This document shows positions 8,153 to 41,003 of a stretch of DNA of 46,654 nucleotides, piece by piece. The translations under genes were made by a program, and so were the position numbers. The stretch is from a virus: IMG/VR virus record IMGVR_UViG_3300024059_000004, positions 1 to 46,654 of that record; one strand, 5' to 3'. The first letter of the stretch is position 1. Each line of letters begins with the position of its first letter. The notes beneath the pieces were generated by a model that saw nothing but the letters and a program-made list of their open reading frames with translations, was not told the DNA's origin and did not search any database.

Positions 8153-8324
8153 GTATAGAGGTGTGGAGGCGAACGAGAAATATAAGTCTCTGGAGGTGCA
8201 AGCTGCGCGTAAGCTAAATAGCATTCCTGAGTTTCGTCGTGACAAACCTGATGAGTATTTTACTAGAAAGGACATGGCTGAGATTGCTGAAATCCATACT
8301 CGAATGAAACTGGTGCAATTTTGA
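8139..8324 (+). CDS. small protein, unknown (61 aa)
   Basis: The product MLSPEYRGVEANEKYKSLEV... is charged and helical. It overlaps the preceding gene by 14 bases. No family is recognised and no clear ribosome binding site is present, so it may depend on upstream translation. Confidence 0.5.
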   Translation: MLSPEYRGVEANEKYKSLEVQAARKLNSIPEFRRDKPDEYFTRKDMAEIAEIHTRMKLVQF

Positions 8325-8371
8325 ATCAGTGGTATCCTGTACGGCACTGGATTTTTAGTGTGGTGTACGAA

Positions 8372-8914
8372 ATGAGATATTTACTATTGTTTTTACTATT
8401 GCTTCCGTTTACTTCAGAAGCCGATTGTGGGCATGGCAACAACCCATGTGTTGAGCCAATCCCCGGCCCCCAAGGACCACAAGGTGAGCAGGGTATCCAA
8501 GGGGAACAAGGACCGAAAGGTGACAAAGGTGATACCGGAATGAAGGGGATGACTGGCTCTGTGGGTGCTGACGGACGTTCAGTGGCTGGCCCTAAGGGTG
8601 ATCCCGGTGTCGCGGGAGTTGATGGTATTGATGGTAAGGATTACCTGAACTCGGACACGCTTTCAGATGATGAAATTTCTGAGCTATTCGCGGGGGCAAC
8701 TGCGATGGCAGGTTTGGATTTTGATAGTACGACTACCAAGACCCAAGTTGGTCTTGCGGTTGGGTACTACGATGGCGAAGACAGTTTGGCTATTGGTATC
8801 GCCAGAGTCTGGGATTCGGAGCGAATGGGTGATGTACTGTTCTCGATCAAGACAACTGTCGATGAACTTAATGGTCACCGGCCTATAGTCGGTGCAGCGA
8901 TCTGGAAATTTTGA
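8372..8914 (+). CDS. secreted collagen-like protein
   Basis: The ATG at 8372 starts a signal peptide (MRYLLLFLLLLPFTSEA, likely cut before DCGHG). An in-frame TTG at 8321 overlapping the upstream stop is an alternative start. After a short Cys-containing segment comes a collagen-like Gly-X-Y stretch of about 20 triplets (GPQGPQGEQGIQGEQGPKG...), which forms trimers. A C-terminal globular domain of about 85 residues follows, with a repeated TTKTQVGLAVGYYDGE-like beta pattern reminiscent of YadA/Hia-type trimer anchors. Phage collagen-like proteins are usually fibre parts, but a signal peptide means export from the host cell. A role at the infected cell surface is inference. Confidence 0.75.
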   Translation: MRYLLLFLLLLPFTSEADCGHGNNPCVEPIPGPQGPQGEQGIQGEQGPKGDKGDTGMKGMTGSVGADGRSVAGPKGDPGVAGVDGIDGKDYLNSDTLSDDEISELFAGATAMAGLDFDSTTTKTQVGLAVGYYDGEDSLAIGIARVWDSERMGDVLFSIKTTVDELNGHRPIVGAAIWKF

Positions 8915-8915
8915 T

Positions 8916-9491
8916 ATGAGTAATCAAACTGAGTACGACGAGGAAATCACTGAGGAAGTGGTGTTAAGCCGGTGGGATAAAATCAAACAGTGGATTGAGA
9001 TTGTCGTGGCTACTAAGAAAGTTGCCATGCTGATCTGGTCACTGGTCTTCGCAACTGGTACAGCAGTGGTGGTCGGTGAAGCTACTGACACCAAACCCAT
9101 TCGAGAGGCAGCTGTCGCTATGGGCTTACTTAATGAAAAGGTGCCACTGAACCCCAGCGCTGAACCCTATATTGATGAACTGCTCGCGCTGCAAGCCGAT
9201 GTGTTTATGCTTCAGGATGAAATCAAATCCCATACCCATAAGATAACATGGGAAGGACACACCCACGATTTAGCGGAGCACGAGCATGATCACGAGCATC
9301 CCGCACAGGACCTTAGTCACAAGCACGTAGCACCAGTTCCTGTATTAGTCGCGCACGAGCATGACCCTGTAACTCACGAGCATAGGCTACCGGCGCACGA
9401 ACACGAGGGTGAGAACATCAGCGCGGCTGAGCTCGCAGGACAGCTGGCCATCGATGACGCGGTACTCAAGCATATAAAATATGACCACTGA
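8916..9491 (+). CDS. membrane-anchored His-x-His repeat protein
   Basis: A 191-residue protein: acidic N-terminus, one membrane span at about residues 37-55 (KVAMLIWSLVFATGTAVVVG), a helical spacer, then a region with eight H-x-H motifs (HTH, HTH, HEHDHEH, HKH, HEH, HEH, HEH), 16 histidines in about 70 residues. Strings of HxH bind iron along the axis of trimeric phage fibre tips such as T4 gp37; they can also simply bind metals. It starts one base after the collagen-like gene's stop and overlaps the collar-domain gene. Function is unknown; metal binding is likely. Confidence 0.7.
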   Translation: MSNQTEYDEEITEEVVLSRWDKIKQWIEIVVATKKVAMLIWSLVFATGTAVVVGEATDTKPIREAAVAMGLLNEKVPLNPSAEPYIDELLALQADVFMLQDEIKSHTHKITWEGHTHDLAEHEHDHEHPAQDLSHKHVAPVPVLVAHEHDPVTHEHRLPAHEHEGENISAAELAGQLAIDDAVLKHIKYDH

Positions 9492-9768
9492 GAAACCCGA
9501 ATACCAAGGACTAGAACCTATCCTACTCCCTGCGGATGGTCGCACACTGAGTCGTTATGATTGGCCTCGTTGTTACGAAAAAATTGGTGGGGCGGTATGG
9601 GAAGATGGCGTTCGGTTTTCACTACCAATTCGCGGTCCTGAAACCATGCGGGACCCAGCTTCATTTGCGAACATCAAGCGTGAATGTTTTGTCAATGTGC
9701 GTTTAGGCACGTACTTTACTCAGGCAACCAAGATCGACGAACTAGACGAATTACTACGGATACGTTAA
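9481..9768 (+). CDS. stand-alone phage tail-collar domain protein
   Basis: The 95-residue product matches the phage tail collar domain core: ILLPADGRTLSRYDWPRCY, IGGAVWEDG and RFSLPIRG follow the family pattern of 'PCDGR-LSR-YP-L---IG--yG-G-T-FNLPDLRG'. The domain normally sits near the C-terminus of long tail fibres; here it is a whole protein. It overlaps the HxH gene by 11 bases and the sulfotransferase gene by one base (TAATG). Confidence 0.75.
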   Translation: MTTEKPEYQGLEPILLPADGRTLSRYDWPRCYEKIGGAVWEDGVRFSLPIRGPETMRDPASFANIKRECFVNVRLGTYFTQATKIDELDELLRIR

Positions 9769-10601
9769 TGACGAAACAAATACATTTTATCGCGGGGCTA
9801 CCCCGCTCTGGCTCCACACTTCTCTGCAACATACTTAATCAAAATCCAGATTTTCATGCTACTTCTACCTCAGGGATTCTTGATGTTATTTTAGCAATAC
9901 GCAACCAGTGGGAAAATTTAGTTACTTTCAAAGCATCACCCAATAAAGCAGGTAAGGCTGCGGTGCTTAATGGTATGCTGCATAATTATGTGAGTGTCAT
10001 TGATAGGCCAATTGTGTTTGATAAGTCTCGAGGATGGCCAGCCCACATTGCATTAGCGGATGTGATCCTTGACCAGCCAGCTAAAATAATTGTGCCAGTT
10101 AGGAAGATCACTGACATCCTATCTTCGTTTGAAGGACTCTATAGGAGGAATGCTCACGACTGGCAATTCCCCCAAGAAAAAAATCACTTTAACGAGTGGC
10201 AAACGGTAGAGGGGCGAGCGGATATATGGATGCGAAATGACCAGCCAGTAGGGTCGGCATTTAATGTGATTCGTGATGCCATTTCTCGTGGGTATGCAGA
10301 CCGACTACACTTCATTGAGTTTGAATCTTTGGTGTCTAACCCGAAACAAACTTTGCAAGCTATGTACAGCTTTTTAGGATTGAAGTATTACACCCATAAT
10401 TTTAATCGTGTTGAGCAGGTAACCCATGAGAATGATGACTTGCATGGCATACCGGGGCTACATGTTATCCGTAGTAAGGTAGAGGCTCCACCACAATATG
10501 GGTCTACATTAATCGGAGAGCACGTGTACCGCAAATTTGATAATGCTGAGTTCTGGAGACCAAAAGAAGTAGCTACTGGACCACTGAGAGTGCAGCTCTA
10601 G
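9768..10601 (+). CDS. sulfotransferase family protein
   Basis: The 277-residue protein begins KQIHFIAGLPRSGSTLLCNIL, the 5'-phosphosulfate-binding loop of PAPS-dependent sulfotransferases (residues 10-18). A 3'-phosphate-binding stretch IVPVRKITDILSSFEGLY follows near residue 105, and the C-terminal FESLVSNPKQTL..YSFLGL is typical of the family. These enzymes move sulfate from PAPS to hydroxyl or amine groups of sugars, lipids or proteins. The substrate is not visible. A phage copy beside surface-type proteins and the terminase could modify virion glycans or host envelope sugars. Start by TAATG overlap. The local AT content is somewhat higher than its neighbours, hinting at acquisition. Confidence 0.85.
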   Translation: MTKQIHFIAGLPRSGSTLLCNILNQNPDFHATSTSGILDVILAIRNQWENLVTFKASPNKAGKAAVLNGMLHNYVSVIDRPIVFDKSRGWPAHIALADVILDQPAKIIVPVRKITDILSSFEGLYRRNAHDWQFPQEKNHFNEWQTVEGRADIWMRNDQPVGSAFNVIRDAISRGYADRLHFIEFESLVSNPKQTLQAMYSFLGLKYYTHNFNRVEQVTHENDDLHGIPGLHVIRSKVEAPPQYGSTLIGEHVYRKFDNAEFWRPKEVATGPLRVQL

Positions 10602-12004
10602 TGTCTCAAGACATAGCCCGGGTCTACAACGCTACTCCGACACTCGCGGAGTTCCACGCGTCTGACGCGCCGTTTCGTCTGGTTCGAGGTCCAGTAGGGT
10701 CAGGGAAGTCCGTGGCACTCGGTGCCATCGAAGTGGTGCGTAGAGCATCCGAGACTCCCCCAAGTCAGGATGGGGTGAGGCGATCACGCTGTGTCGTAGT
10801 GCGGAATACTTTACAACAACTGAAGTCAACTTGTCTGGTAACCATGCAGGAATGGATACGGCCAATTTCAGTGTGGAAAGTTTCGGAAGCGACATTGTTT
10901 ATTGCTTTCACTCCTGCTGATGGCATTCCAGTATCGTGCGAAGTTTTAATGCTACCTCTGGACACACCGGAAAACCAACAAAGATTATTGTCTCTCGAGC
11001 TGACGTTTGCTTGGGTATCGGAGTTCCGCGAAATCCCTTTAGAGATATTACAGGCCGTTTTTTCGCGATGTGGTCGCTATCCTTCGCGTGCGAACGTGAA
11101 AGATTATTGGTATGGCCTTTTCGGGGAAACGAACTCATTTTCCGAGGATAGCGATTACTATGACTTTTTGGAAGTGGAGAGACCGAACAATGTGGATTAT
11201 TTCGTACAGCCGGGGGCGTTTGAAGAAGGCGCGGAGAATAGAGAAAACCTACCACCGAGGTACTATGAGGACTTGCTGGAAGCGAACTCACCGGCTTGGT
11301 GTGAACAATACATCCACAATAAAATTACCCCGTCACTATCAGGCCAAGCGGTCTTTGCAAAGTCGTTCAACCCCGAGTTCCATATTCGTGAACGCCTGTT
11401 TGCAGATTACGGGAGGCCAATCGTCTTGGGGTGCGATACAGGCAGGAACCCTGCGCTCGTTGCGGGGCAGATTGACGCGCGTGGGCGGCTCCTTGTTCTG
11501 GGTTCAGTATGGGCAGAAAACATGGGCATCGAAAAATTTATCGCGACCACGGCCCGTCCGTTTCTGTTGGAGAATTTCCAAGGAGGAAAGTTCTTTATCT
11601 CTATGGACCCAGCAGGGAGGCAGCGATCACAGATAGGTGAGGAATCTGTGAAGATGGCCGTTGAACGATTAGGCTTTTCTGTTATATTGGCCCCTACCAA
11701 CGATATTACTCCAAGGCTCAGAGCAGTTGAGCGATACTTGGGGCTGCAGATCGATGGGGGAGGTGGTCTGTTAATTGATAGGCGGTTAAACAATGATCTA
11801 CTCTTGGCACTACAAAGAGACTATCGCTACCCTCGCGACAAGAAGGGCGTGCTTGCTGAAAAGCCTGACAAAGGTCACCCAGAGTCCGATTTGGCAGATG
11901 GGCTGCAATACCTTTGTTTATCAGCAGCGTCGAATGTGCTGGCGCGAGCGATGACTCCTGTGATCACCGTAGCACCACCACCACCCACAGCGGCATGGAC
12001 TTAG
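10601..12004 (+). CDS. terL: terminase large subunit
   Basis: The packaging motor and nuclease. The ATPase domain shows Walker A GPVGSGKS (residues 30-37) and a Walker B-like LTFAWVSE with the acidic E141. The RNase H-like nuclease domain shows the first aspartate D279 (LGCDTGRNPA), D336 (SMDPAG) and the last acidic cluster SDLADG near 429-434. Length (467 aa) is normal. The start is GTG sharing one base with the sulfotransferase stop (TAGTG). The probable small subunit is 4.4 kb upstream. Confidence 0.93.
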   Translation: MSQDIARVYNATPTLAEFHASDAPFRLVRGPVGSGKSVALGAIEVVRRASETPPSQDGVRRSRCVVVRNTLQQLKSTCLVTMQEWIRPISVWKVSEATLFIAFTPADGIPVSCEVLMLPLDTPENQQRLLSLELTFAWVSEFREIPLEILQAVFSRCGRYPSRANVKDYWYGLFGETNSFSEDSDYYDFLEVERPNNVDYFVQPGAFEEGAENRENLPPRYYEDLLEANSPAWCEQYIHNKITPSLSGQAVFAKSFNPEFHIRERLFADYGRPIVLGCDTGRNPALVAGQIDARGRLLVLGSVWAENMGIEKFIATTARPFLLENFQGGKFFISMDPAGRQRSQIGEESVKMAVERLGFSVILAPTNDITPRLRAVERYLGLQIDGGGGLLIDRRLNNDLLLALQRDYRYPRDKKGVLAEKPDKGHPESDLADGLQYLCLSAASNVLARAMTPVITVAPPPPTAAWT

Positions 12005-12006
12005 TG

Positions 12007-12035
12007 TTGACAAGCACTCAGCATCAACTTATTCT
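12007..12035 (+). promoter_or_regulatory. sigma-70 promoter before the portal gene
   Basis: TTGACA at 12007-12012, a 17-base spacer, and TATTCT at 12030-12035, in the 58-base gap between the large terminase and portal genes. It would raise expression of the portal-capsid block. Confidence 0.55.
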
Positions 12036-12062
12036 TTAGCAAACCTACCTTAGGATTTGTCT

Positions 12063-14216
12063 ATGCCTTCAGGCATCACAACACAAGCGGATGTCCGAAA
12101 TCTGTCGCTAGGCGGCGGTAATCCAGCGCGGCCCCCTCAAGATCGTAACACTGTCGGCATACCCTCTCCGGTAAAAGATACCGCAGGGACGCACGGTATG
12201 TTGCGTGTCATCTCCAATGGTGAGATGCAAAACGCTGAAATGGCCGAGCAGGAAGCGATACGCGCGGAAGCGCAGCAAGCTGATGAATACAAGAAGCAAG
12301 GCATTGCAGGACATATTAGGACCATGTTTTACCAGTTCAGGTCTGACCGCGAGACACGTGGTATATCAGATCGACTTGTGGAATCTCTTAGGGCATACCG
12401 AGGTGAGTACACCCCGCAAAAGAAAGCATCTATCACGCAGTTCGGGGGCAGTGAGGTTTATGCCAAGCTCACCCAAGTAAAGTGCCGTGGCGCTACTTCG
12501 ATGCTTCGAGATATTTATCTTGCCGGTGACCGGCCATGGTTCATCGAACCTACTCCTGACCCCGTACTACCAGAAGACGTTACCAAGTCTGTTCTGGAGC
12601 TCGTAACATCAGAGGTTCAAAAACTTCAAGATGCTGGTGAACCAGTCGATCACAACACGGTTACTGATCGAATAAAGCAACTCACAGGCAGTGCGCGAAA
12701 AGCGGCACTGAAGGAAGCGAAGAAAGACGCTGATCAAGCTACGCGATATCTTGACGACATGCTGGTGGAAGGTCACTTCTACGACAAGCTGACCGAGTTC
12801 CTACACAACATAGCGATATTCCCGTTTGCATTTATGAAGGGACCAGTTGTGCGTATGGCTACCGATGTCAGATGGGAAAACGGCGCAGCAGTTGTAAAAG
12901 ACATTCCAAAAATGTACTGGACCGCTCCATCCCCATTCGACATTTACTGGAGCAGCCAAGTTGATTACTTCGAGAATTCCCCAATTATTGAGCACCTTAG
13001 ACTCCAGCGTTCAGACCTTAATAATCTCTTGGGTGTCCCGGGATATGACGACGATGCCATCCGAATGGCATTGGATGAATACGGGCAAGGTGGCCTTTCT
13101 GATTGGCTCGACTATACCGATACCGAAAAAGCCCATTTGGAATTGCGTCAAGATCCACACATCAATCATTCAGACGAAATAGACACTCTGGAGTGGCACG
13201 GAAATATTCAAGGCAAGATGCTGCTGGACTATGGATACAACAAAGAAGAAATCCCTGACCCGGACAAAGACTATTTCTGCACAGCATGGCTGGTCGGTTA
13301 TCACATCATCAAGGTTCAGATCGACCCTAACCCGCGCAAACGCCATCCCTACTACAAGTCATCATTCGAGAAAATCCCCGGTGCTATAGTTGGTAACGGT
13401 GTGCCCGAAATTATGTCGGACGTACAGGATGTCGCGAATGCTTCATTGCGGGCTCTGGTGAATAACTTGAGTATCGCGTCAGGACCGCAGGTCGTGATTA
13501 ACGACGACCGCGTGTCACCAAACACAAACACGGATGATCTATACCCGTGGAAGCGTTGGCACACACTGACCGATCCTATGGGTTCATCAGAGCCAGCAAT
13601 TACTTTTTTCCAACCTGATTCACGTTCAGCTGAACTGCTTAATGTCTACGGGCAAATGAGTATTCTTGCTGACGAGATATCAGCAATACCTCGTTATATG
13701 ACCGGCTCAGCAGGAGGGCAAGGTCCTGCTGGTCGTACAGCGTCAGGATTAAGTATGCTGATGGAAAACGCAGGTAAAGTCATGCAGTCGGTTGCAGCGA
13801 ATATCGATGCTGATATATTTACCCCATTGCTACAACGACTTTATGATACGGTGTTACTGACAGATGATTCAGGCAGACTGCAGGGTGATGAAAATATTAG
13901 AGTCCGTGGTGTTACATTCGCGAATAAACGTGAGACTGAACGAGCCCGGATACTTGAATTTCTTCAACTTACGGCAAATCCCATGGACTCTCAGATTGTG
14001 GGTATGGAAGGTCGTGCAGAGCTGCTGCGTGAGACTGCTGATAGGATTGGATTGGATTACGCTAACATTGTACCAGACGCAGATGCTATGGCCGGTATGG
14101 CCGCTCAGCAGCCACCGCCCGGGACTCAAGAAGAAAAGCCCGGGTCCGGTGAAGCTGGCGCGGTTGACGAAGGCATGAAAGGTGCACAACGAGGCCCGGG
14201 AGGGCAAGCAGTATGA
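12063..14216 (+). CDS. portal protein
   Basis: At 717 residues this is within the range for podovirus portals. The order (after the large terminase, before scaffold and capsid) and the sequence fit: a central VPEIMSDVQDVANASLRALVNNLSIASGPQ stretch, then ADEISAIPRYMTG and a helical PAGRTASGLSMLMENAGK region, are typical of portal cores. The portal forms the dodecameric ring for DNA entry. The ATG at 12063 has AGGA seven bases upstream; a TTG at 12057 is less likely. The C-terminus is Pro/Gly-rich and disordered. Confidence 0.88.
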   Translation: MPSGITTQADVRNLSLGGGNPARPPQDRNTVGIPSPVKDTAGTHGMLRVISNGEMQNAEMAEQEAIRAEAQQADEYKKQGIAGHIRTMFYQFRSDRETRGISDRLVESLRAYRGEYTPQKKASITQFGGSEVYAKLTQVKCRGATSMLRDIYLAGDRPWFIEPTPDPVLPEDVTKSVLELVTSEVQKLQDAGEPVDHNTVTDRIKQLTGSARKAALKEAKKDADQATRYLDDMLVEGHFYDKLTEFLHNIAIFPFAFMKGPVVRMATDVRWENGAAVVKDIPKMYWTAPSPFDIYWSSQVDYFENSPIIEHLRLQRSDLNNLLGVPGYDDDAIRMALDEYGQGGLSDWLDYTDTEKAHLELRQDPHINHSDEIDTLEWHGNIQGKMLLDYGYNKEEIPDPDKDYFCTAWLVGYHIIKVQIDPNPRKRHPYYKSSFEKIPGAIVGNGVPEIMSDVQDVANASLRALVNNLSIASGPQVVINDDRVSPNTNTDDLYPWKRWHTLTDPMGSSEPAITFFQPDSRSAELLNVYGQMSILADEISAIPRYMTGSAGGQGPAGRTASGLSMLMENAGKVMQSVAANIDADIFTPLLQRLYDTVLLTDDSGRLQGDENIRVRGVTFANKRETERARILEFLQLTANPMDSQIVGMEGRAELLRETADRIGLDYANIVPDADAMAGMAAQQPPPGTQEEKPGSGEAGAVDEGMKGAQRGPGGQAV

Positions 14217-29315: not shown

Positions 29316-29752
29316 TGCTTATTGTCGAACCCCAAGGTGTTATCAAGCACTGGCTCTGCGATCAAATAGGGTACATCCCTACGGCAGAGTTCATTTGTAT
29401 TGGGCAGTTCGATGAAAAGAAACAAGATTTAATTGGGGCCATTGGGTATGACGGATGGTCCAAGAATATGGTGGAAATGCACAGCGCCGGGGTCCCGGGC
29501 AGCTACTGGCTGACTAAGGAGTTTCTGTTCAAATGCTTCCACTTCCCTTTTATTGTACATGGTCGTGAGATCGTGACATCAAGGGTATCTACAGGCAATC
29601 CTGTAGCTGTGAAAATGAATTTACAGGCGGGGTTTACCGAGCAGTGTCGAATAAAAGGCGGTGCTGATGACGGGGATTTGATAATATTTACCATGTATCG
29701 GGCCGAATGTAAGTGGCTTCGCATGGGAAAACTGTACAAAGAGGCAGCGTAA
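29315..29752 (+). CDS. GNAT-fold protein in internal virion cluster
   Basis: The 145-residue protein has the strand-helix pattern of GNAT acetyltransferases: IGAIGYDGWSKNMVEMHSAG, then a helix region TKEFLFKCFHFPF, then SRVSTGNPVAVKMNLQAGFTEQCRIKG, the part that in active enzymes carries acyl-CoA-binding residues and the 'GF' turn. Proteins of this shape occupy the T7 gp13-like position in many podoviruses. Whether it acetylates anything is not visible. Confidence 0.65.
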   Translation: MLIVEPQGVIKHWLCDQIGYIPTAEFICIGQFDEKKQDLIGAIGYDGWSKNMVEMHSAGVPGSYWLTKEFLFKCFHFPFIVHGREIVTSRVSTGNPVAVKMNLQAGFTEQCRIKGGADDGDLIIFTMYRAECKWLRMGKLYKEAA

Positions 29753-31179
29753 TGGGAAAGAAATCCACACCTTCGGGCACTAGCGATGCACTAAAAGGCT
29801 TTGACGAGATTGGTGAAATCTCGAAGGCCCAGCTTGAATCGCAGTATGGGATGGCCGATGAGCGTCAACAATATGACCAAGAACAATGGCGGCAAAACAG
29901 GGACCGGCTTTCTGGTATTGATGACTCAATGCTGGGTTACTCGGAGGACTCAATACGCCGCGCTGGTGAGGATCGAGCTAGGTACGAGGAACTTTACCAA
30001 CCCATTGAGGAACAGTATCTTGATAAGGTTAAGAATTTTGACACAGCGGAAAGACGGACTTCCGAAGCCGCCGCCGCACAGACGGAAGTTGCCGCACAAT
30101 CCGAAGCTGCACGCCAGAGTGCCCTTCGCCGGTTAGAGTCGTATGGCGTTGACCCCTCTCAGACAAGGAATGCAGCCCTTGATGTAGGTGTTCGCATGGA
30201 GGAAGCAAAAGCTAAAGCTGGTGCTGCCACTGATGCACGCCGAAGTGTAGAGCAGACAGGCATGGCGCTTGAGCAAGGGACCATAGATCAAGGTCGCGGT
30301 CTTGATGCGATGGGGAAAAGTAACTTTGCAGCTGGAGCTAGTGCTATCCCCACGTATGGGCAAGACGCTGGCGATATGTATGGGCAAGGTAACGCCGCGT
30401 TAGATGCGTGGGGCAGCGCCATAGGCTCCAAAGCTGAGACTTCAGCAGCGAATCAGTCTAACAAAAACCAAGCGGGTGGTGATATGTTGGGTTCTGCCGC
30501 AATGATCGGTGCCGCAGCTATTCCATTTATGGCTGAAGGTGGCGAGATTGAAGGCCCGGGTGGTCCGACTGATGACGCTATTGATGCCAAGCTATCTGAC
30601 GGTGAATTCGTGATTCCAGCTGATGTTGTTAAGCGCAAAGGAACAGAGTTTTTCGACAAGATGATCGTGAAAGTGCAGCAAGAACTTGCTGAGCGTGAGC
30701 AAACTGCACAGGTTACCGACGAAGCTTTAGGTATACCACCTCCTGAGGCCGTAGCACCAGATATGGGCATGTATAAAGGTGGCGAAGTAATGGGTTTTGC
30801 TCAAGGCGGTTGGGTAGATATTGAGCAACCTGCTAAGCGTTCAGGTATGCTTAAAGGAGCGGCAAGTATCGCCAGCGGTCTTGACAAGCTTCGTGCTAAC
30901 CAAGTAGAAGCGGAGCCGGTTGTAACACCAGTCGTGACAGCACCAGCACCAGCACCAGCGATGAGGGCTCGCCCTAACGCGCGGTATATTCCTACACCCG
31001 TATATGATGGTCCAAGTTTCGCAGCTGGTGGTGAGGTCTCAGCCATACCAACTAATCCAGATATCAGGGCTGGCTACCAAATGACCAGAGACCCGAGTGC
31101 TCACGCTTATGCAGGACCAGAAACTAAGTGGCCAGCGGATAAATACCCGCCGCCACCTAATGCAGTAGGAGCAAATTGA
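29752..31179 (+). CDS. internal virion protein (gp14-like)
   Basis: A 475-residue protein. The first 150 residues are Gln/Ala/Glu-rich helices (QYGMADERQQYDQEQWRQN). The middle contains AEGGEIEGPGGPTDDAIDAKLSDGEFVIPADVV, a module found in many phage inner or tail proteins, and further GGEV motifs follow. By order it is the first of three ejection proteins. TAATG overlap sets the start. Confidence 0.7.
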   Translation: MGKKSTPSGTSDALKGFDEIGEISKAQLESQYGMADERQQYDQEQWRQNRDRLSGIDDSMLGYSEDSIRRAGEDRARYEELYQPIEEQYLDKVKNFDTAERRTSEAAAAQTEVAAQSEAARQSALRRLESYGVDPSQTRNAALDVGVRMEEAKAKAGAATDARRSVEQTGMALEQGTIDQGRGLDAMGKSNFAAGASAIPTYGQDAGDMYGQGNAALDAWGSAIGSKAETSAANQSNKNQAGGDMLGSAAMIGAAAIPFMAEGGEIEGPGGPTDDAIDAKLSDGEFVIPADVVKRKGTEFFDKMIVKVQQELAEREQTAQVTDEALGIPPPEAVAPDMGMYKGGEVMGFAQGGWVDIEQPAKRSGMLKGAASIASGLDKLRANQVEAEPVVTPVVTAPAPAPAMRARPNARYIPTPVYDGPSFAAGGEVSAIPTNPDIRAGYQMTRDPSAHAYAGPETKWPADKYPPPPNAVGAN

Positions 31180-31180
31180 A

Positions 31181-32731
31181 ATGGCTAAATGGGTAAGTGC
31201 TGATGCACTGAGAGTCCAAGATTTAGGGCTCACTAATGCTGTCAATCAGGGCATTGCAGGGTACAGATTCGGGCAAGAGCAAAAAGGCATTCGAGACCAA
31301 GAAGAACTTGGTTCTATGATGGCAGCTATTCCTGAAGCTGAGCAGACAACACAAATGGTTGCTTCAGAGCAAAGCAACATGCTCGCAGACCAGACTGCTG
31401 ACTTTGCTGATGAGCCGGTAATAGCAAACCCCCACCAAGTAACTGCTATTCCTGAATCTGAGGCTGCGGTGCAGCAAATGGGCAAGCGGAAGAAAACCAC
31501 TACCAGTAAAGATTGGAAGTCTTGGGAAGAAGGTATTCGAAAAAAAGCCGGGGCTATGGGACCCAAAGCACTTGCAGATGCTAACGCTCACATATCCACC
31601 ACAAAGCAGGGTTCGTTGCGTGAGAACGCAGCTACTGCTATGGCAGCTATGAGGGCGGGTGACCTCAGGACCGCTAAGGATGCCCTACAGGAAGCGTACA
31701 CTAGCTTCCCTGATGGTAACCGTGCGGAGATTGAAGAAGTTGGCGGGAAACTCGTTGCAAATATCTACAACGAGGATACTGGGCAACTCGTAGAAAGTAA
31801 GCCTATTGGCCCACAAGATATGGCTGACATCGTCAGGATATCTGAGGACCCTGTCGCATACGCTGACGCTGTTCGTCAAGCGGAACTCGACGCAGTCGCA
31901 GTCGCAGAAGATCGTACCCGTTTTGATATCACTGAAGGTCGCCTATCAACACAAGTCAGTAACGATATGACCCTTGGTGAGCGCCGGTTGAAGATGCAGG
32001 AAGGCCAAGCGGCTATTGACGCGGTCAGGTCTGGCGTACAGAACGAGGAATCTCGTCAGAAGATGGCGCAAATCGTAAGCAACATGGAGGAACTGGTTAA
32101 AGCTTCAAAGCGTGCTGACGATATGACTGAAGCGGATATTAACAAGGCTGAGTCTTCTATTGAGAAAACAAAAGCGGATATGGAAATCGACGCTGCTAAG
32201 CTGAAACTCGAGCAGATTGCCTATATTGGTGATGGTGCTAGCCGTAATCTGAAGCGGCAAAAAATCGACGCTGAAATTAAGGAGCTTGAAGCTAAAGCCG
32301 CATACTACGCAGGTGGTGGTACTAAGGCAGCTGGCAAGACCTATTTTGCCAAGCGTAACGATTTGTTGCAGAGGATGAACACTGCTGCTAAGAGTATGGA
32401 GGCTGCAGATGAAGCTATGGCTTCAGAAAACAAACGCGCAGAGTTTGCTAAGAGTAAGGGTAAGCCATACACAATCAACCCAACTGTTGAAAAAGCTTAC
32501 CAGCGTGAGCAAGAGCGATACAAACTTATCACTGATATGTGGACTAGCCTTGAACAGCAATATGAACCAAAGGATGGACCAGAAGTTGTATCACCAGCTT
32601 CAGCGATACCAGCCCCGGGCACCCCAGCTGCTACCCCATCGACTGCTGGTCCTGCAATCGGAGCAACAGCGACCAACCCGACCACGGGGGAAGTAGTAGA
32701 GTGGGATGGTACTAACTGGATTCCCATGTAA
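31181..32731 (+). CDS. internal virion protein (gp15-like)
   Basis: A 516-residue, strongly helical protein (long Ala/Glu/Lys helices at about residues 230-400, Pro/Ala-rich linker near 470, then a short C-terminal GATATNPTTGEVVEWDGTNWIPM). The C-terminal NPTTGEVVEWDGTNW element is common at the end of phage internal proteins. It overlaps the giant gene by one base. Confidence 0.7.
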   Translation: MAKWVSADALRVQDLGLTNAVNQGIAGYRFGQEQKGIRDQEELGSMMAAIPEAEQTTQMVASEQSNMLADQTADFADEPVIANPHQVTAIPESEAAVQQMGKRKKTTTSKDWKSWEEGIRKKAGAMGPKALADANAHISTTKQGSLRENAATAMAAMRAGDLRTAKDALQEAYTSFPDGNRAEIEEVGGKLVANIYNEDTGQLVESKPIGPQDMADIVRISEDPVAYADAVRQAELDAVAVAEDRTRFDITEGRLSTQVSNDMTLGERRLKMQEGQAAIDAVRSGVQNEESRQKMAQIVSNMEELVKASKRADDMTEADINKAESSIEKTKADMEIDAAKLKLEQIAYIGDGASRNLKRQKIDAEIKELEAKAAYYAGGGTKAAGKTYFAKRNDLLQRMNTAAKSMEAADEAMASENKRAEFAKSKGKPYTINPTVEKAYQREQERYKLITDMWTSLEQQYEPKDGPEVVSPASAIPAPGTPAATPSTAGPAIGATATNPTTGEVVEWDGTNWIPM

Positions 32732-35700
32732 TGGCGGCTCAACTTCCAGCCGGTTTCGTACTCGATGAGAGCGAGGAACAAACTGCGGGTGCGCTTCCCC
32801 CGGGTTTTCAGCTGGATGCCCCTAAACCACCACCTTTATTAGCTAGGGATGAGTCCGTAACATCAGGTATCCCTGAGAAGACCACTTCTGAAAATATTGG
32901 TACTTTGGTCGATAAAGGCAATATCAAAAACGCACAGGCAGTTGGCGGCTTGGCGATGGCCGCTGCAGACGCTGGTACTGGTGAGTACGACTGGTCACTG
33001 ATGGGTGACGAAACCCACTATCCAGTTTGGTCAGTACAAGGTGCGCTTGATCTTGTTGGTGACGTTACCAAAAAAATTGGTGGTGACATCGTAGGACTAG
33101 GTGTCGATGCTGCGGATATGGTTATCGATGGTGATGTTCGCGCTTCATTGCAAGAGACTGGCAAGCTGTTGCAGGAAGGCGGCAACTTAATGCTGAACGA
33201 CCCTAAAAACCAGATCGACGCAGAGGGGTTTGAAGGGTATCTATACGAAGTTGGTGAAGGCTTGTATGGTATGGCTGGCCCACTGGCGGTGGGTGCGCTC
33301 ACTGGTGGTGTTGGTATGTTCGGCGCACTCGCCGCGCAAGTAGGTGGTGCCAAATATGGCGAAGTGATGGAGAAGACCGGCGGCGATCACGTTAAAGCAT
33401 CAAATGCTGCCTTATTTGCAGTCGCTGCTGAAGCACTTCCTGAAATGATCCCAATGAATGCTGCCCTTAGAAAGGGTGGTGGTGGCGAAGCATTTTCACG
33501 CATCATTGAAACCACGTTAGGTGAAGGTGCACAAGAGTGGCTGACCAGTATTCTTGAGCAGACTTACGATGCTAATCAGCTAGAAAATATGTCGCTAAAG
33601 GACGCTATTCTTGGTGTCGATTTATCTGAGGCTAATCACTCATTTCTTGTTGGCTTGGGTGTCGGTACTGGCTTGGGTACTCCCGGTGCTATCGCGGACC
33701 TCGCTGCTGAAAAAGAAGCAATCGCTAGTGGAATAGATAAGACAAAAGCTACTTTCAGCGACATGGCTGATAAGATTCTTGAAGGGACTGGTCTTGGTAA
33801 AAAGCCAGAGCCTGAAAACTATGTTGATGACTTCTCAGCACCAGCTGAGCAAGACAGTGTCGATATGGACTTGGACCTCAACGAGTATGTCGTAGCAGAC
33901 ATGAAAGCTGCTGACGAGGCCGCAGCATTAGTCCCTGACGGGGCTGTTGTGCCTGAGGCTCCAGAGACCATTGAGCGCCAACTTGAAGTCATGCGCGACC
34001 CAGCGGCAGAGCGCAAGGCAGTATATCTGCCTGAGGGGCAAGCAGTACCCGATCTTCCTGAAGGTGAAAGAGCTATGGCTCTTGGCGATGGAAGCACCTT
34101 AGTGTTTCCTGAATCTGCTGAAAGCATACAGATAGTAACTGACCTGTACGAGGCCATACAGAATGGCGATGAAGCAGCTAAACAAGCAGTTATCGCTAGT
34201 GCCACTGGTATTGGTGGTCAGGGTAAGACTCCCGGCGCTCCCGCAGTTGTAGTAACGGACCCTGATGGTACGGTCGTACAGTCAGCGGTCGCTGATCCTG
34301 CTGGTGAGGTCTTGGCAGCTGCTGAAGCCGTAGCCGCACCCCGTGGTGCTGAGGTCTCAGTAGAAGACCCACAGGCTGTTGTTGCTGACCGGGGAATACC
34401 TACTGATTTAGAAGCCGGTTTAGAAACTGCGCCTGTGACAGATTTAGAGGCCGGTTTGGAAACTGCGCCTGTGACAGATTTGGAAGCTGGCCTCAATGAA
34501 ACACTTGAGTATGGCCAGCCGCAGACTCTTGGTACACAACAAGCTATTGATGCTGTTCAGTTAGGTCTTACAAACCATCAAGCGGCTATTGATGCGTATG
34601 CTGGCGAGCCCGGGCGTAAGCCTAGAGGCAATGAAGAACAGCTCATGGCTGCGGATTCAGTGTGGGTGACCATGGCGAATAACGTGATACCTCAGCTTGA
34701 ACAGGAAGGCTATGACGTTACTCAGCTAAAAGCGATATTGCAAAAAGCGGCAGGGAATAAACCAGCCACTATGGGCACCGCTAAAATGCGCGGTAATGCG
34801 CCTATCGCTGGCCGAAGGAGTAACCCGGGTGGTAGAGGTCGTCGGTCACCTACTGGTGGGTGGGGTCCTGTACTGGATACGTTCTACAAGGGCATGAGTG
34901 CGGAAGTTAATCGCTTAATAAATGAAGGTCCTACCGGCATACCGAAAGTAGTCGCACCGCTAGCCAAGAAAGCAGCAGCAGTTACTAAGGCTCGTCGCGC
35001 GAAAGCTGCACCTGTTGCTGAGCCCGTAACACCTATTGCTGAGCCCGTAACACCTGTTGCTGAGCCCGTAACACCTACCCCTGAGTATGAAGGTGTTGCT
35101 GAGGAAGCTTCAGCTGAGCCAGTCACTGAAGAAGAAAAGGAAATTCTCGATACTGAGGCTAAGCTCACAACAGAAGAAGCAGAGGCCCGTGGGACGGACG
35201 TAGCAGGTAAAGGGGTAGCTGATATAGAAGTCAGTAAAAAATACGCAAAAAGCCAACGTAGCAGCCCTGAGGAAGAAGCGGCCATCCTTGCTGAGCGTGC
35301 GGAAAAAGAAGAAAAAAATATCAGTGATAAGTTGATCGCTAAGCAACGTAAAAAAGTAGAGTCGGAAGCTGCCGCTGCCAAGCAAGCGGAGGAAATTACC
35401 GCTGCCGCTGAAGCCGCTGCAAAAGCCAAGCCAGTCATCAAAGTAAAAAAGAAGCCTCGCAAACGAGCAGAGACCGCCGATGCTAAGAAGGCCAGACTAA
35501 CGGCCAAGATGGAAGCTGAATCAAAAGCATTCGCAGCTGAAATGAAAGGTGGCGGTCGCCGCAAAAAGGCCCCTGCCCCAATGGGTAAAGAAAGCTTAGG
35601 CATAACCACGCCAGCTGCTGAAGCTAAGCCTACAACATGGGTCGAGGAACAAGCGACAAGGCGCATACCAGATACAGGCAAGCCAGCGAAGAAGACGCTC

Positions 35701-38700
35701 AGTGATATTGACATCGTAGCAGTAGGTATGAAGGGTGGTGCTGAAGTCGTAGCACAATCTGTTGCCAACTCCACGCAAACGGGTGACATCGCTACTCTCA
35801 GCATGAAGGCTGGGGATGCTGTCGTGTCACCGGCTAATAATAAAGGCTACATGAAAGGAAACATGAAGGCCGCTGGCAAGAATATCGATGGTGCTTATGT
35901 CGATATGTTTGGTGACCAAATCCAAGACCGTGTACAGGCTAAGATGCAAGCTTTGTATGATGGGGATATGCCTCTGGGTGAGGCGTTTGTAATACGCACC
36001 TATCCAGAAGGTACGCCGATACCCGTGGGTAAGCCGGGTTGGCTGGTAGTTTCTCCGACAGTGACTTATCAAGAATCAGGTATGCCCCCAAAAGCTACGC
36101 CAGATTTAGCGGGTAAGGCAATGACCAATGTCCTGAAGGCCGTAGGTGATGCTGGTATTGATCGCGTGTTTATGCCAGCTATGGGCATGGGCTCGACGGT
36201 CGGTGCTAAAAACATGCAGAACGATTTCCGTAAGGAATTCCAGAATGCCTATGATGTGGCCGACGAGTATCTTGATGCTAACGCTAACCCGTCTACGAAC
36301 CAGACTTCAGAGCTGAGTGAAGAAGACACCGCTTTCCTCGCTGATCTAGCTGGTGGCACGGTGCTGGAAGATAAGTCACCCAACAAGAAAGTTGCTGACT
36401 ACGAGCGTGTTGTTGCTGAGCTTGAAGCTGACATGCAGAAGCTTAACAAGCAGCACTTCGACGAGACCGGGGAACGCCTTGTCTATCTGGTGCATGGTGG
36501 CTCCAAAGTGAACGCTGCAGCTCTGGCTATGGACCCACGCCTGAAGATGACCCGCTATGGTATACGGGGGGTTTATGCTACGCCCTCGAATGCGAAGTCT
36601 GCTGCTGAGTTCGCAGTGACAAAGAAAGGCCCTGATGGTGTTGGCTTAGCAACATGGGTTATGACCGAGTCAGAATATGCACGGCAACAGCGACTAGGCA
36701 ACATTGTCTTGGGCACGATGGATATCATCAACCCGAAGACAGGTGATATTAAGTCTGTCCCTGAGGTCGTAATATCAGAGGTTGCTTTGGCTTATGTTGA
36801 GGACTCACGGGCATACATGGACTCAGCGCCAGAAGCACAAGCTAAGTCACTGGCGGGTAATCCTGAAGCCAAAAATATTATGTTTGGCCGGGAAATAGCC
36901 GCAGGGTATTTGGACGAAGTTTATGACGAGCGCGGCACTGTGCGAGCCAACGATATCCTAGATATTATTGATGCTGAACTGGCCGAAGGTGATCCCTATA
37001 AAACTCTGATCCAGAGAATGCGGGACGTAGGCGTGGCCAAAATAATGACCATGCGTGCTACTCCGGAGCAAATGGGCAGAGTTGCCAAACCTACGACTAA
37101 CGGTGCATTCGTCAATGGGCTCAGTGGTGAGCCTAAGATCATGTTGAACGATAGCATTATGGGTGACGGGTTTAGCGTTAAGGTATTCATGCACGAAATG
37201 ATTCACGCCATGACAAGCGAGGCACTGCGTACAAACAACGCTACGGCCTTAAAGCTTGAAGCCTTACGCAAGCGCGTGATTAAAGAGTTAGAACGTGAGG
37301 GAGGCAAATACGCAGCGCAGGACTATGGCTTTACAAATGTTGATGAGTTCGTTGCAGAAGCGATGACTAACCCAAGCTTTCAACGTGCACTAGCCGGTGT
37401 AAATGTTGGTAAGGGTGAGACCTTGTGGACAAAGTTCGTAGACATCGTGGCCAACATGCTTGGGGTTCCAGTCGAATCCAAGTCTGCTCTTGCTGAGGCG
37501 TTGACACTAAGCAACAACCTGTTTATGAGCCCAACTGAAATAGCTCAAACCCGAGCAGAAAACGCAGCACCCTACATTGTGCCCCGGCAAGCTGTGACTC
37601 AGCGACCTCTGAGCCAGATACCTGATATCAATGAGTACAATCCTACCGAGGAAGAACTGATGGCTCAGATGCTGGGCGATGGATCACTGCGTGTTCTTCA
37701 GCATCAGAGTGTTCGCGATACCGTGCAAGGCATGGGCGATATTATAAATAGAAAAGTGGATGCAAAAGAATTTGCTAAGGATGCTGCTAATTCGTTTACA
37801 GTACGGTTGAACCTCAGCACGATGGATCAGGTCATCCGAAATCATTCGCATAGGTTTGTTAAAAACGGTAAGAATTTACTGAAAAATCTCCAGACTATTC
37901 ATCGAAAGAAGACACAGATTGCACGCGACTTGCAGCAAAAAGCTGGCGCTATCGATAAGCTCTGGAAAGAAATGGAGAAGTTCAAGGGCGGGTATAAAAT
38001 GACCGAGCAGCTGGGTAAGCTGATGCGGGATTCTACTTTGAATAATATCCACCCTGATGCCGCGTTCTACAGTATGAAGAACAAGCACCTCTGGTTTAAG
38101 AAAAGCCCAGCTACTATCAAGCGTAATCAGGAAAGGCACACTGCCGCGCAAGCTGAGTTCAATAAGCTTACTGGCCGAGCTAAGAGTATTTTTCGTCAGG
38201 TCCGGGAGTTCTATAAGGACCAGCGTGTTGAAATGCGTAAGGCCACCATCGAGAAAATAGCCAAGGCCAATAAGCTCGATGGTCAGCTGTCAGCTGCGGA
38301 CATGGTAACCATACTCAACGCAAAAGAACCTGCTGATATTGCGGACGTAGATTTTACCCCAATGGCTGATATGGCTGATGGTGTTAAGCAGTCATTAGAA
38401 ACAGTGTTGTTCTCCACTTCGGTCGAGGGTCCATACTTCCCACTTCGTCGATTTGGTGACGTTGCTGTTGATGCAGAAAGGATAACTACCTCACTGGCTC
38501 ACCCAGACCGAAAGTCAGCATATGCGGCGGCAAAGGCTCTGCGTGCTGAGCATCCGCTAGATAAAATAAAGTCCCGCAAAATTGATGGGTCATGGGTTGT
38601 CGAGCGTTCAGAGAGAATTTACGAAACATTCGAAACTGAGCGTGCAGCTAGAAAACGTGTGCACCAGCTGAACAGTGGTCCTAACCCGTTCAAGATGCGC

Positions 38701-40668
38701 GGACAAGATGGTCCTGTCGAGTCTACTTTACAGCAACCGTCTAATCATGTTGAGGGGTCAGGAGCAGGGGCCTTATTGCAAAAAGCCAAGGGCAAGCTTG
38801 ACGAAAACAGCCAAGAGTTCAAGGCTTTGGAAACTGCGTTCACTGAAATGTTGTTGGCTAACTCTCTCCGTAAAGCGGAGCTGAAGCGTAACCGTGTTAA
38901 GGGCGCGTCGATCAACATGCGCCGGGGATTCGCTGAGCGTGCTTTTGCTGGGTCATGGGCGCTGGCTGATTTGAAAACATCGTTTGATCAAGCTGAAGCT
39001 ATGTCAGAACTTGATAAGTTCGCTCGCACAGAAGCCAAGGATAAAATAAAAGCCGGTAAGATAGTAAAAACTTTGAATCAACGCTGGAACAAAGAGCTGT
39101 CTGAGCGCAAAACATCCAAGTGGGACGCAGTAATGTCCAAGCTGGGATTCACGTGGTTCTTGATGTCACCGTCTTACACACTGATCAACATGACTCAACC
39201 TATGTTAGTGGCTCAGCCATACCTCATAGGCAAGTATGGGGTCAAAGGTGCTGGTGCTTTGTTCAAAGCGTACAATGGTGTCACTCAGGTAGCAGTCAAA
39301 GAACTGTGGAAAACTAAAGCTGGTTGGCAGAGTGGGCCTGAAAATATGCTGGACCTTGTAGTCGCTGAGTATAAGGGCACACCTACCGGCGACATGATCC
39401 AAACGCTAGCTGACCAAGGCATTATCGATGCTACATTTATGCAGGAACTCTATGAGGCCAGCCAAGGGAAAAGTGATAGGGGTGTCGGTGCCAAGGTCGT
39501 GAACAAGACTATGGATATTGCGCGGACCATGCCTCAGATTGCTGAGGTCGTAAACCGTGTTGTTGTCGCCAAGGCAGCGTATGAGCTGGAGATTAAGCAA
39601 GGGGCAACTCACGAACAGGCAGTCGAAGGTGCTGGTGAAGCCATTTTACAAACTCAGTTTGATTACTCCGACCAAAATAAGCCACCGCTATTTAAAGGAT
39701 TCCCCGGGGTCAAGTCCGTGATGATGTTCAAAATGTATGGGCAGGGGATGTATGCTTTGTTCGCCTCGAATATTGTTAAGACTTTCAAAGGCGGTACTCC
39801 AGAGTTAAGGGCTGAAGGCATCAAGACAGTATCATTACTTCTCGCGAGCCACACTGCTGCCGCTGGTACGCTGGGCGGTTTGATGTTGGAGCCAATCAGG
39901 GCGCTGCTTTGGGCGCTCAGCCAGCTGCTTGAAGAAGATGACGAGGAATGGGATGTCGATGCTACTATCGAGATATTCTTGAAAGACACGCTGGGTGATG
40001 GGTTTTGGGGTGAAGCTGCTACCAGAGGTTTATTCTCAGCTGCAGATATAGGTGGTGGTGAGCGCGTAGCACTATCAAGCGCCTTGTTGATGCCCCCCAA
40101 CGATACAAAGGATGTTCGCGCGGCTTGGATCGAGCTGCTGCTAAAGCTTGGCGGTCCCGTGGTTGGTGCTACGGTCTCAATAGCAGATGGTATACAGCAG
40201 ATCAAGAATGGTGACTATGTGAAGGGCACTGAGAAAATAGTACCTAAAGGATTCAGGGACATGATGCGCGGCGGTTACCGATATCCAACTGAAGGCCCAA
40301 CGGGCTATGGTGGTGAACAACTCCCTGTTGACTTGGGTGCTGGGGATATGATTTCACAATTTTTTGGTGTTACGCCAGCAGCGATGACTAAATATTACGC
40401 TGGTGCCGGGGCATTGAAAAAGCACCAGACACAAATAGAAACCAAGCGTAAGTCGCTTATCCACGAGTGGAGCCGGTCTGACAATCCTGTCGAGTTTGAA
40501 ATGGAGCACGTGATGCCATTCAACATGCGTCACGATCCTAAGTGGGAAGTCACTGAGGAAAATCTCAAGAATAAGCTCGAGGGTAGAGAGGACAAGCAAG
40601 ACCTGTTAATGTTTGGTGATGATGACTTCTCAATGGAAGAAATGGAACTGCAAAGGTTGATACCATAA
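32731..40668 (+). CDS. giant polyvalent ejection protein: macro, ART-like, HExxH peptidase, PLxRFG
   Basis: A 2645-residue protein in the T7 gp16 position. N-terminal LPxGFxLD motifs are followed by a hydrophobic region (180-300), then low-complexity Ala/Glu/Pro linkers with repeats (about 555-600, 760-785). A macro domain covers about 1000-1185 (SPANNKGYM 1033-1041, PAMGMG 1149-1154). An ADP-ribosyltransferase-like segment follows (H1255 in LVHGGS, Y1282 in RGVYATPS, E1345/E1350). A zinc peptidase site HEMIH is at 1488-1492 with E1543 as third ligand. PLRRFG at 1904-1909 marks the PLxRFG family. The C-terminal 500 residues have amphipathic or membrane-like helices. Domains are probably delivered with the DNA to act on the host; macro and peptidase calls are firm, ART moderate. 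Confidence 0.85.
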   Translation: MAAQLPAGFVLDESEEQTAGALPPGFQLDAPKPPPLLARDESVTSGIPEKTTSENIGTLVDKGNIKNAQAVGGLAMAAADAGTGEYDWSLMGDETHYPVWSVQGALDLVGDVTKKIGGDIVGLGVDAADMVIDGDVRASLQETGKLLQEGGNLMLNDPKNQIDAEGFEGYLYEVGEGLYGMAGPLAVGALTGGVGMFGALAAQVGGAKYGEVMEKTGGDHVKASNAALFAVAAEALPEMIPMNAALRKGGGGEAFSRIIETTLGEGAQEWLTSILEQTYDANQLENMSLKDAILGVDLSEANHSFLVGLGVGTGLGTPGAIADLAAEKEAIASGIDKTKATFSDMADKILEGTGLGKKPEPENYVDDFSAPAEQDSVDMDLDLNEYVVADMKAADEAAALVPDGAVVPEAPETIERQLEVMRDPAAERKAVYLPEGQAVPDLPEGERAMALGDGSTLVFPESAESIQIVTDLYEAIQNGDEAAKQAVIASATGIGGQGKTPGAPAVVVTDPDGTVVQSAVADPAGEVLAAAEAVAAPRGAEVSVEDPQAVVADRGIPTDLEAGLETAPVTDLEAGLETAPVTDLEAGLNETLEYGQPQTLGTQQAIDAVQLGLTNHQAAIDAYAGEPGRKPRGNEEQLMAADSVWVTMANNVIPQLEQEGYDVTQLKAILQKAAGNKPATMGTAKMRGNAPIAGRRSNPGGRGRRSPTGGWGPVLDTFYKGMSAEVNRLINEGPTGIPKVVAPLAKKAAAVTKARRAKAAPVAEPVTPIAEPVTPVAEPVTPTPEYEGVAEEASAEPVTEEEKEILDTEAKLTTEEAEARGTDVAGKGVADIEVSKKYAKSQRSSPEEEAAILAERAEKEEKNISDKLIAKQRKKVESEAAAAKQAEEITAAAEAAAKAKPVIKVKKKPRKRAETADAKKARLTAKMEAESKAFAAEMKGGGRRKKAPAPMGKESLGITTPAAEAKPTTWVEEQATRRIPDTGKPAKKTLSDIDIVAVGMKGGAEVVAQSVANSTQTGDIATLSMKAGDAVVSPANNKGYMKGNMKAAGKNIDGAYVDMFGDQIQDRVQAKMQALYDGDMPLGEAFVIRTYPEGTPIPVGKPGWLVVSPTVTYQESGMPPKATPDLAGKAMTNVLKAVGDAGIDRVFMPAMGMGSTVGAKNMQNDFRKEFQNAYDVADEYLDANANPSTNQTSELSEEDTAFLADLAGGTVLEDKSPNKKVADYERVVAELEADMQKLNKQHFDETGERLVYLVHGGSKVNAAALAMDPRLKMTRYGIRGVYATPSNAKSAAEFAVTKKGPDGVGLATWVMTESEYARQQRLGNIVLGTMDIINPKTGDIKSVPEVVISEVALAYVEDSRAYMDSAPEAQAKSLAGNPEAKNIMFGREIAAGYLDEVYDERGTVRANDILDIIDAELAEGDPYKTLIQRMRDVGVAKIMTMRATPEQMGRVAKPTTNGAFVNGLSGEPKIMLNDSIMGDGFSVKVFMHEMIHAMTSEALRTNNATALKLEALRKRVIKELEREGGKYAAQDYGFTNVDEFVAEAMTNPSFQRALAGVNVGKGETLWTKFVDIVANMLGVPVESKSALAEALTLSNNLFMSPTEIAQTRAENAAPYIVPRQAVTQRPLSQIPDINEYNPTEEELMAQMLGDGSLRVLQHQSVRDTVQGMGDIINRKVDAKEFAKDAANSFTVRLNLSTMDQVIRNHSHRFVKNGKNLLKNLQTIHRKKTQIARDLQQKAGAIDKLWKEMEKFKGGYKMTEQLGKLMRDSTLNNIHPDAAFYSMKNKHLWFKKSPATIKRNQERHTAAQAEFNKLTGRAKSIFRQVREFYKDQRVEMRKATIEKIAKANKLDGQLSAADMVTILNAKEPADIADVDFTPMADMADGVKQSLETVLFSTSVEGPYFPLRRFGDVAVDAERITTSLAHPDRKSAYAAAKALRAEHPLDKIKSRKIDGSWVVERSERIYETFETERAARKRVHQLNSGPNPFKMRGQDGPVESTLQQPSNHVEGSGAGALLQKAKGKLDENSQEFKALETAFTEMLLANSLRKAELKRNRVKGASINMRRGFAERAFAGSWALADLKTSFDQAEAMSELDKFARTEAKDKIKAGKIVKTLNQRWNKELSERKTSKWDAVMSKLGFTWFLMSPSYTLINMTQPMLVAQPYLIGKYGVKGAGALFKAYNGVTQVAVKELWKTKAGWQSGPENMLDLVVAEYKGTPTGDMIQTLADQGIIDATFMQELYEASQGKSDRGVGAKVVNKTMDIARTMPQIAEVVNRVVVAKAAYELEIKQGATHEQAVEGAGEAILQTQFDYSDQNKPPLFKGFPGVKSVMMFKMYGQGMYALFASNIVKTFKGGTPELRAEGIKTVSLLLASHTAAAGTLGGLMLEPIRALLWALSQLLEEDDEEWDVDATIEIFLKDTLGDGFWGEAATRGLFSAADIGGGERVALSSALLMPPNDTKDVRAAWIELLLKLGGPVVGATVSIADGIQQIKNGDYVKGTEKIVPKGFRDMMRGGYRYPTEGPTGYGGEQLPVDLGAGDMISQFFGVTPAAMTKYYAGAGALKKHQTQIETKRKSLIHEWSRSDNPVEFEMEHVMPFNMRHDPKWEVTEENLKNKLEGREDKQDLLMFGDDDFSMEEMELQRLIP
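34405..34494 (+). repeat. 36-base in-frame tandem repeat
   Basis: Two full copies (34405-34440, 34441-34476) and a partial third encode DLEAGLETAPVT units in the linker of the giant protein. Confidence 0.85.
35014..35076 (+). repeat. 21-base in-frame tandem repeat
   Basis: Three copies of (G/A)TTGCTGAGCCCGTAACACC-T encode (V/I)AEPVTP units in the linker preceding the macro domain. Such repeats change linker length by slippage. Confidence 0.85.
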
Positions 40669-41003
40669 TGGCTAAAATGAAAGCAGGAGTTAGATCACCG
40701 ACCGCACACCGAACTAAGGAGCAAGCGTCTGCTCAGTGGGCTGGTAGGTCTGATGCTTCCAAGGCAAAAAACAAAGTATGGAAAAAGGCGCGGCGGGTGA
40801 TGGAAAAGAAAGGCGCTGTAACCAAAGGTGATGGGAAGGACGTAGGTCACAAGACTCCGCTTTCAAAGGGTGGCTCAAATTCGGAGTCGAACCTACAGGT
40901 CCAGAGCCAAGCCAGCAACCGGGGTCATGGTATGTCTCCCGGTGGGACAAAAAAAGGGACGACGATCCAAAAGGCGAAGAAGTATCGGAACCCATATACC
41001 TAG
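40668..41003 (+). CDS. HNH-endonuclease-like protein
   Basis: The 111-residue basic protein contains VGHKTPLSKGGSNSESNLQ followed by SQASNRGHG, matching the second half of HNH nucleases (H, then N-L, then N-R). The zinc-binding cysteines of many HNH proteins are absent. Small HNH proteins assist packaging or DNA cleavage in many phages. It is the last gene of the rightward block and shares its stop region (CTAG) with the convergent primase gene. Confidence 0.7.
   Translation: MAKMKAGVRSPTAHRTKEQASAQWAGRSDASKAKNKVWKKARRVMEKKGAVTKGDGKDVGHKTPLSKGGSNSESNLQVQSQASNRGHGMSPGGTKKGTTIQKAKKYRNPYT

Follow-up and report, generated by a model that had tools for sequence, protein, structure and literature searches.

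A macro domain in a giant phage protein

The DNA analysed here, hereafter the window, is the IMG/VR virus record IMGVR_UViG_3300024059_000004 over its full length of 46,654 nucleotides. A single open reading frame (ORF) on its plus strand, at 32731..40668, encodes a giant protein of 2645 amino acids (aa), which is a polyvalent protein of the PLxRFG or DarB-like kind with zincin, LPD and PLxRFG regions (NCBIfam PLxRFG tail-700, 7.3e-86; phrog_10089, DarB-like, 1.7e-43). All features of this protein described below lie on the same strand. Our subject is a macro domain at residues 990-1186 (35698..36288) and, directly behind it, a segment that resembles an ADP-ribosyltransferase (ART). A preliminary description, made from the letters alone, had proposed a macro domain of the 'SPAN' subtype inside a phage ejection protein and had read it as a means of counteracting host ADP-ribosylation.

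Residues 990-1186 were confirmed as a genuine macro domain by profile matches and by structure. The Pfam profile Macro (PF01661) scored 27.2 bits on the fragment and 26.4 bits in another scan, both above the cut-off of 22, and 21.3 bits on the whole protein, slightly under it. The same segment was matched by phrog_2613 (8.5e-20) and by PHROG 14717, annotated as a tail protein (4.5e-11). A control profile built from six phage homologues, with the window sequence left out, gave 65 bits on the real macro segment vs. 9.8 bits for the best of 2,000 shuffles. When used alone as a query against the PDB sequences, the window macro domain returned nothing relevant, and its relatives emerged only with a family profile. 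The AlphaFold2 model, based on 17 alignment rows, reached a predicted local distance difference test score (pLDDT) of about 80-96 across most of the domain. The top PDB match of this model in Foldseek was the macrodomain 5fud (1.8e-5, probability 1.00), and the matches (1.8e-5 and weaker, probability 1.00) were to E. coli YmdB and human MacroD2 as well as to a macrodomain from Oceanobacillus; among viral models, Foldseek returned macro proteins only.

The four motifs cited in the preliminary description are all in frame at nt 35812-36192, within the domain as it had been placed there: GDAVVSPANNKGYM at residue 1028 (nt 35812), DGAYVDMFG at residue 1053 (nt 35887), LVVSPTVTYQ at residue 1105 (nt 36043) and PAMGMG at residue 1149 (nt 36175). 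That description had named structure prediction as a check and loss of the ADP-ribose pocket residues as what would tell against it; the prediction recovered the macro fold, and the pocket residues are largely kept. Loop 1 (GDAVVSPANNKGYM..NIDG, 35812..35895) retains N1036 and D1053 around a 7-residue insertion, so that the N-D spacing is 17 in the window vs. 10 in relatives, and loop 2 is PAMGMGSTVGA at residues 1149-1159 (36175..36210). In addition to N1036 and D1053, residues G1039, M1041, G1043 and the G-x-G of loop 2, with G1152 conserved, are kept, while N1037, K1038, N1051 and T1112 are altered positions in the window copy. Because the key pocket residues are kept and yet 7 residues are inserted in loop 1, activity of this copy is likely but not certain.

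The subtype proposed for the domain also stood. The combination of VSPANSxGxMDGGID with P-x-G-x-G is the hallmark of a real phage family, many members of which occur in enterobacterial prophages and tail regions, and most of the SPAN macro genes found stand alone. A family profile dominated by these stand-alone phage homologues had as its best PDB match yeast YMR087W (1njr/1txz/1ty8), a protein of the Macro2 type, with 1.1e-18 for 1njr and 3.5e-13 for the next match.

An ART-like domain behind the macro domain

The segment directly after the macro domain, approximately residues 1240-1375 (36448..36855), is probably an ADP-ribosyltransferase. Clearer homologues of it occur in two further phage contigs, L099 and L181, in which LYHGT or LFHGT is followed by GVYAAP or GIYATP, then by ITEYFFDP and finally by the zincin motif HELVH; LYHGT and GVYAAP are the forms in L099. 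The order of these motifs corresponds to the H-Y-E arrangement of ADP-ribosyltransferases. The window copy presents H1255 (VHGG), Y1282 (GVYATP) and E1345 (PEVV) in the same order, which is thus matched in three proteins, with E1345 aligned by a hand-placed gap. The best matches of the ART-like profile among 177,635 PDB sequences were to one H-Y-E ART (E 0.14-0.18), in alignments anchored by the H and Y motifs. A fixed H-Y pattern, which was written with knowledge of L099 and which the window copy itself does not fit, occurred among 663,000 residues only in L099 and in two Pfam-verified ART-PolyVal proteins, and in 0 of 19,100 shuffles. In profile-profile comparisons, two known ART-PolyVal domains ranked within roughly the highest 1% relative to 500 random controls, and a third ART-like sequence scored lower. 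Phage L110 carries a Pfam-verified ART-PolyVal domain in the same slot ahead of the zincin.

Membership of the segment in ART-PolyVal (PF18760) was itself rejected, as Pfam gave no match in the window, L099 or L181, and weak matches to DUF7336, PASTA and Sde182 in these segments were judged to be chance. The ART profile found no match in 398 genomes of one phylum, a search that was run without a positive control and says little. We also observed two tandem ART-PolyVal domains before the zincin of the sister polyvalent protein of L110 (IMGVR_UViG_3300046648_000108, approximately 8200-9745).

Recurrence and selective constraint of the two domains

The ORFs of approximately 80 polyvalent loci were scanned with profiles of the macro domain and of the segment downstream of it. 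Beyond the window and duplicates, only L099 matched among these loci; the macro profile also matches the stand-alone family. Because both profiles match only the same polyvalent proteins, the macro and ART-like domains come and go together. Scans of viral contigs for close relatives of the window protein yielded a single, identical contig, which was not counted as independent, and L181 was found by a further search starting from L099. The order of macro domain, ART-like domain, zincin and C-terminal region recurs in the L099 and L181 phage contigs. L181 is 26% identical to the window protein over residues 1029-2580, a stretch that starts in the macro domain and almost reaches the C-terminus; in an end-to-end alignment, the macro domains are 35% and the ART-like domains 28% identical. 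Over the macro and ART-like region, L099 and L181 share 64% identity, and the co-occurrence therefore represents two lineages, not three. A Pfam scan that covered the N-terminal portions of 55 sister proteins identified a macro domain once (in L099), an inorganic pyrophosphatase (InPase) domain four times and ART-PolyVal once; about 24 of the 55 sequences end at a contig boundary, so that these numbers are minimum values. In the 54 sister proteins other than L099, neither the macro domain nor the ART-like domain was detected.

Nonsynonymous divergence (dN) between L099 and L181 was 0.06 in the 3' half of the macro domain and 0.27 in the ART-like domain, compared with 0.55 in the linker; synonymous divergence (dS) was at or close to saturation. 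Selection acts on both domains, and strongly on the macro domain.

In another locus, L018, a stand-alone SPAN macro gene (8962-9474) lies near a larger ORF (11090-14101) with an ART-like LYHGS motif, in which Pfam ART-PolyVal found no match. This arrangement is perhaps a two-gene version of the macro and ART pairing.

The carrier protein and its gene neighbourhood

Downstream of the ART-like domain, the giant protein has a zincin-like metallopeptidase at 37006..37530, with HEMIH at residue 1488 and DEFVAEA further on, colinear with its relatives and matched by phrog_37402 and phrog_2206. It is followed by an LPD39 domain at residues 1728-1853 (37912..38289; Pfam PF18858, 47.3 bits) and by the PLxRFG (tail-700) region at 38851..40599 (NCBIfam NF032893, 7.3e-86). 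A nine-sequence alignment of the C-terminal part proved too divergent to serve as a search query.

Two virion genes of 488 and 516 aa lie immediately upstream on the plus strand (29713..32731), the first of which matches a virion structural PHROG, and the giant gene is the last of this T7-like three-gene set of the ejection type. The three large genes follow those for the terminase, the head-tail adaptor (phrog_332), the major head protein, an internal virion protein and an acyltransferase. Rhizobium phage TM29 and Agrobacterium phage ph08 have this gene order in common with the window, and the TM29 protein aligns with that of the window from the zincin to the end at 29% identity. In a related contig, L145, the giant protein has an SLT lytic transglycosylase domain near its N-terminus; T7 gp16 likewise carries a transglycosylase domain at its N-terminus. 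It is a sound inference that the phage is short-tailed, and the assignment of the carrier to the ejection type made in the preliminary description is supported by position and relatives.

Several further observations were made on these proteins and genes. In TM29 (L011, 5641-12627), an inorganic pyrophosphatase domain (6.3e-48) lies upstream of the zincin, roughly at the slot taken in the window by the macro and ART-like domains. The linker of the giant protein contains in-frame short repeats of TDLEAGLETAPV and AEPVTP at about 34400-34560 and 35030-35090, recognised by eye and with approximate coordinates. A small HNH-like gene (40668-41003, plus strand) overlaps the stop of the giant gene. 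Further away on the plus strand, a sulfotransferase gene (9684-10598; Pfam Sulfotransfer_3, 1.2e-16) adjoins the gene for the large terminase subunit, and a collagen-repeat protein with a weak YadA-anchor match, possibly a small fibre, is encoded at 8321-8914.

Interpretation

Because an ART-like domain adjoins the macro domain, this locus is now read as a probable pair of writer and eraser, no longer as a counter-defence eraser that stands alone. The preliminary description thus held for the fold, the subtype, the pocket and the carrier; it had missed the neighbouring ART-like domain, and its proposal that the macro domain counteracts host ADP-ribosylation, although possible, did not gain support. 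We favour an ejected polyvalent protein with a paired module for nicotinamide adenine dinucleotide (NAD) and ADP-ribose, composed of a Macro2-type macrodomain and an ART-like domain, at a probability of about 0.45. The giant protein would enter the cell together with the phage DNA and may then be processed into fragments by its own zincin. The ART-like domain would use NAD to modify a host target or to make an ADP-ribose product. The macro domain would act as a hydrolase on an adduct or derivative of ADP-ribose. It would thereby either reset or limit the product of the ART itself, so that the two domains might have a product in common, or remove an ADP-ribose signal made by the host. A narrower form, in which a fused ART writer and macro eraser, freed by their own zincin at entry, would impose a self-limiting or self-resetting modification on the host, is rather unlikely. 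In jumbo phages, NAD-using domains fused to Macro in one polypeptide have been proposed as toggles (PMC7824862).

A number of results weigh against the paired module. The combination of macro and ART-like domains is known in only three proteins from two lineages, and ejection of the giant protein with the DNA, although a sound inference, comes from position and homology. Even at an E value of 10, the ART-PolyVal profile found nothing in the window, L099 or L181, and it did match L107 and L110. The structural model of the ART-like domain is poor (pLDDT 58), and with it Foldseek gave no significant match; several PARP catalytic domains were listed and were not used as proof. In the macro domain, the 7 extra residues of the window copy, between G1043 and D1053, are absent from 15 of the 15 aligned relatives that cover the loop. 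Finally, YMR087W, described as the only studied member of Macro2, reportedly converts ADP-ribose-1''-phosphate and has no activity in removing mono-ADP-ribose from proteins (de-MARylation; PMC6397177). Since the studied Macro2 enzyme lacks de-MARylation, the substrates would be at least as likely to be ADP-ribose derivatives in soluble form, or what the neighbouring ART produces, as host ADP-ribosylated targets.

The same enzyme lends weight to a tentative alternative, in which the macro domain would be an independent counter-defence enzyme that destroys soluble signals or toxins derived from NAD, such as ADP-ribose-1''-phosphate or cyclic ADP-ribose variants, at entry, with its neighbour acting elsewhere or not being an ART. 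This also agrees with the argument of a large survey that phage macro domains meet mainly soluble ADP-ribose derivatives and are deployed early (Iyer et al. 2022, PMC9503650), and with the stand-alone state of most SPAN macro genes found. The window macro domain, however, is embedded, and within polyvalent proteins it was seen only with the ART-like domain; because of this co-occurrence the pair is slightly favoured over a lone macro domain, and the data do not separate the two.

The adjacency and co-occurrence of the two domains, together with the tighter constraint on the 3' half of the macro domain than on the ART-like domain, would also suit an antidote that acts in the producing cell and shields it before lysis from the packaged ART-like domain, as DarG does for DarT. 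We consider this improbable, as DarG and DarT are separate genes, the macro domains of DarG belong to another clade, and de-ADP-ribosylation has not been reported for Macro2. The inserted loop 1 and the changed N1037, K1038, N1051 and T1112 might instead point to a non-catalytic binder or a relic, which would tether the protein, whole or in pieces, to targets that are ADP-ribosylated or contain nucleotides. The retention of N1036, D1053 and loop 2, and the strong purifying selection in the relatives L099 and L181, argue against such a role, and we regard it as the least probable of these alternatives. With a macro domain in a protein that is probably ejected, next to a probable ART, it would become directly testable whether phages package an ADP-ribose eraser in their virions, and whether host defence or the phage's own enzyme is what that eraser faces.

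Comparison with known systems

Polyvalent proteins with ARTs were already known (PMC5512222; PMC9503650), and a 2022 survey described phage macro domains as typically stand-alone (PMC9503650). The main text of the 2017 survey of polyvalent proteins contains no mention of the term 'macro domain' in a text search, and a search of a library of open-licence papers found none that joins a macro domain with an ejection protein. Both polyvalent proteins and stand-alone macro domains of phages are known, and the presence of a macro domain in a protein that is probably ejected, beside a probable ART, appears to be a new variant.

The closest likeness of the carrier is to the polyvalent, DarB-like PLxRFG proteins of TM29, Agrobacterium phage ph08 and Skulduggery (gp28), which share its C-terminal half and gene position and, in TM29, the zincin. 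These sister proteins differ in carrying other N-terminal cargoes, such as InPase in TM29 and ART-PolyVal in L110, and a macro domain has not been reported in them. The stand-alone SPAN macro domains (Salmonella phage SEN5 gp19, Gifsy-1, Noxifer gp265 and Microcystis phage Mae-JY35; phrog_2613) show the same motifs at 23-31% identity; they are small separate genes, often amid tail genes, whereas the window copy forms part of a giant protein and contains the loop-1 insertion. YMR087W shares the loop SPxNSYG..GGGFD with the family, but it is a cellular, stand-alone protein, and the histidine directly before its V-P-T (IIHVPT), which we take to be catalytic, has no counterpart in the window (VVSPT). 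With phage T4 Alt the giant protein would share an injected ART acting at entry (PMC5512222), but Alt has no macro domain and belongs to another ART clade. DarTG, a toxin-antitoxin system, resembles the pair in uniting an ART and a macro domain as writer and eraser; it consists of two genes, serves host defence, targets DNA and is not injected as one polypeptide, whereas the pair in the window lies in a single ORF and does not fit the two-gene layout of DarTG.

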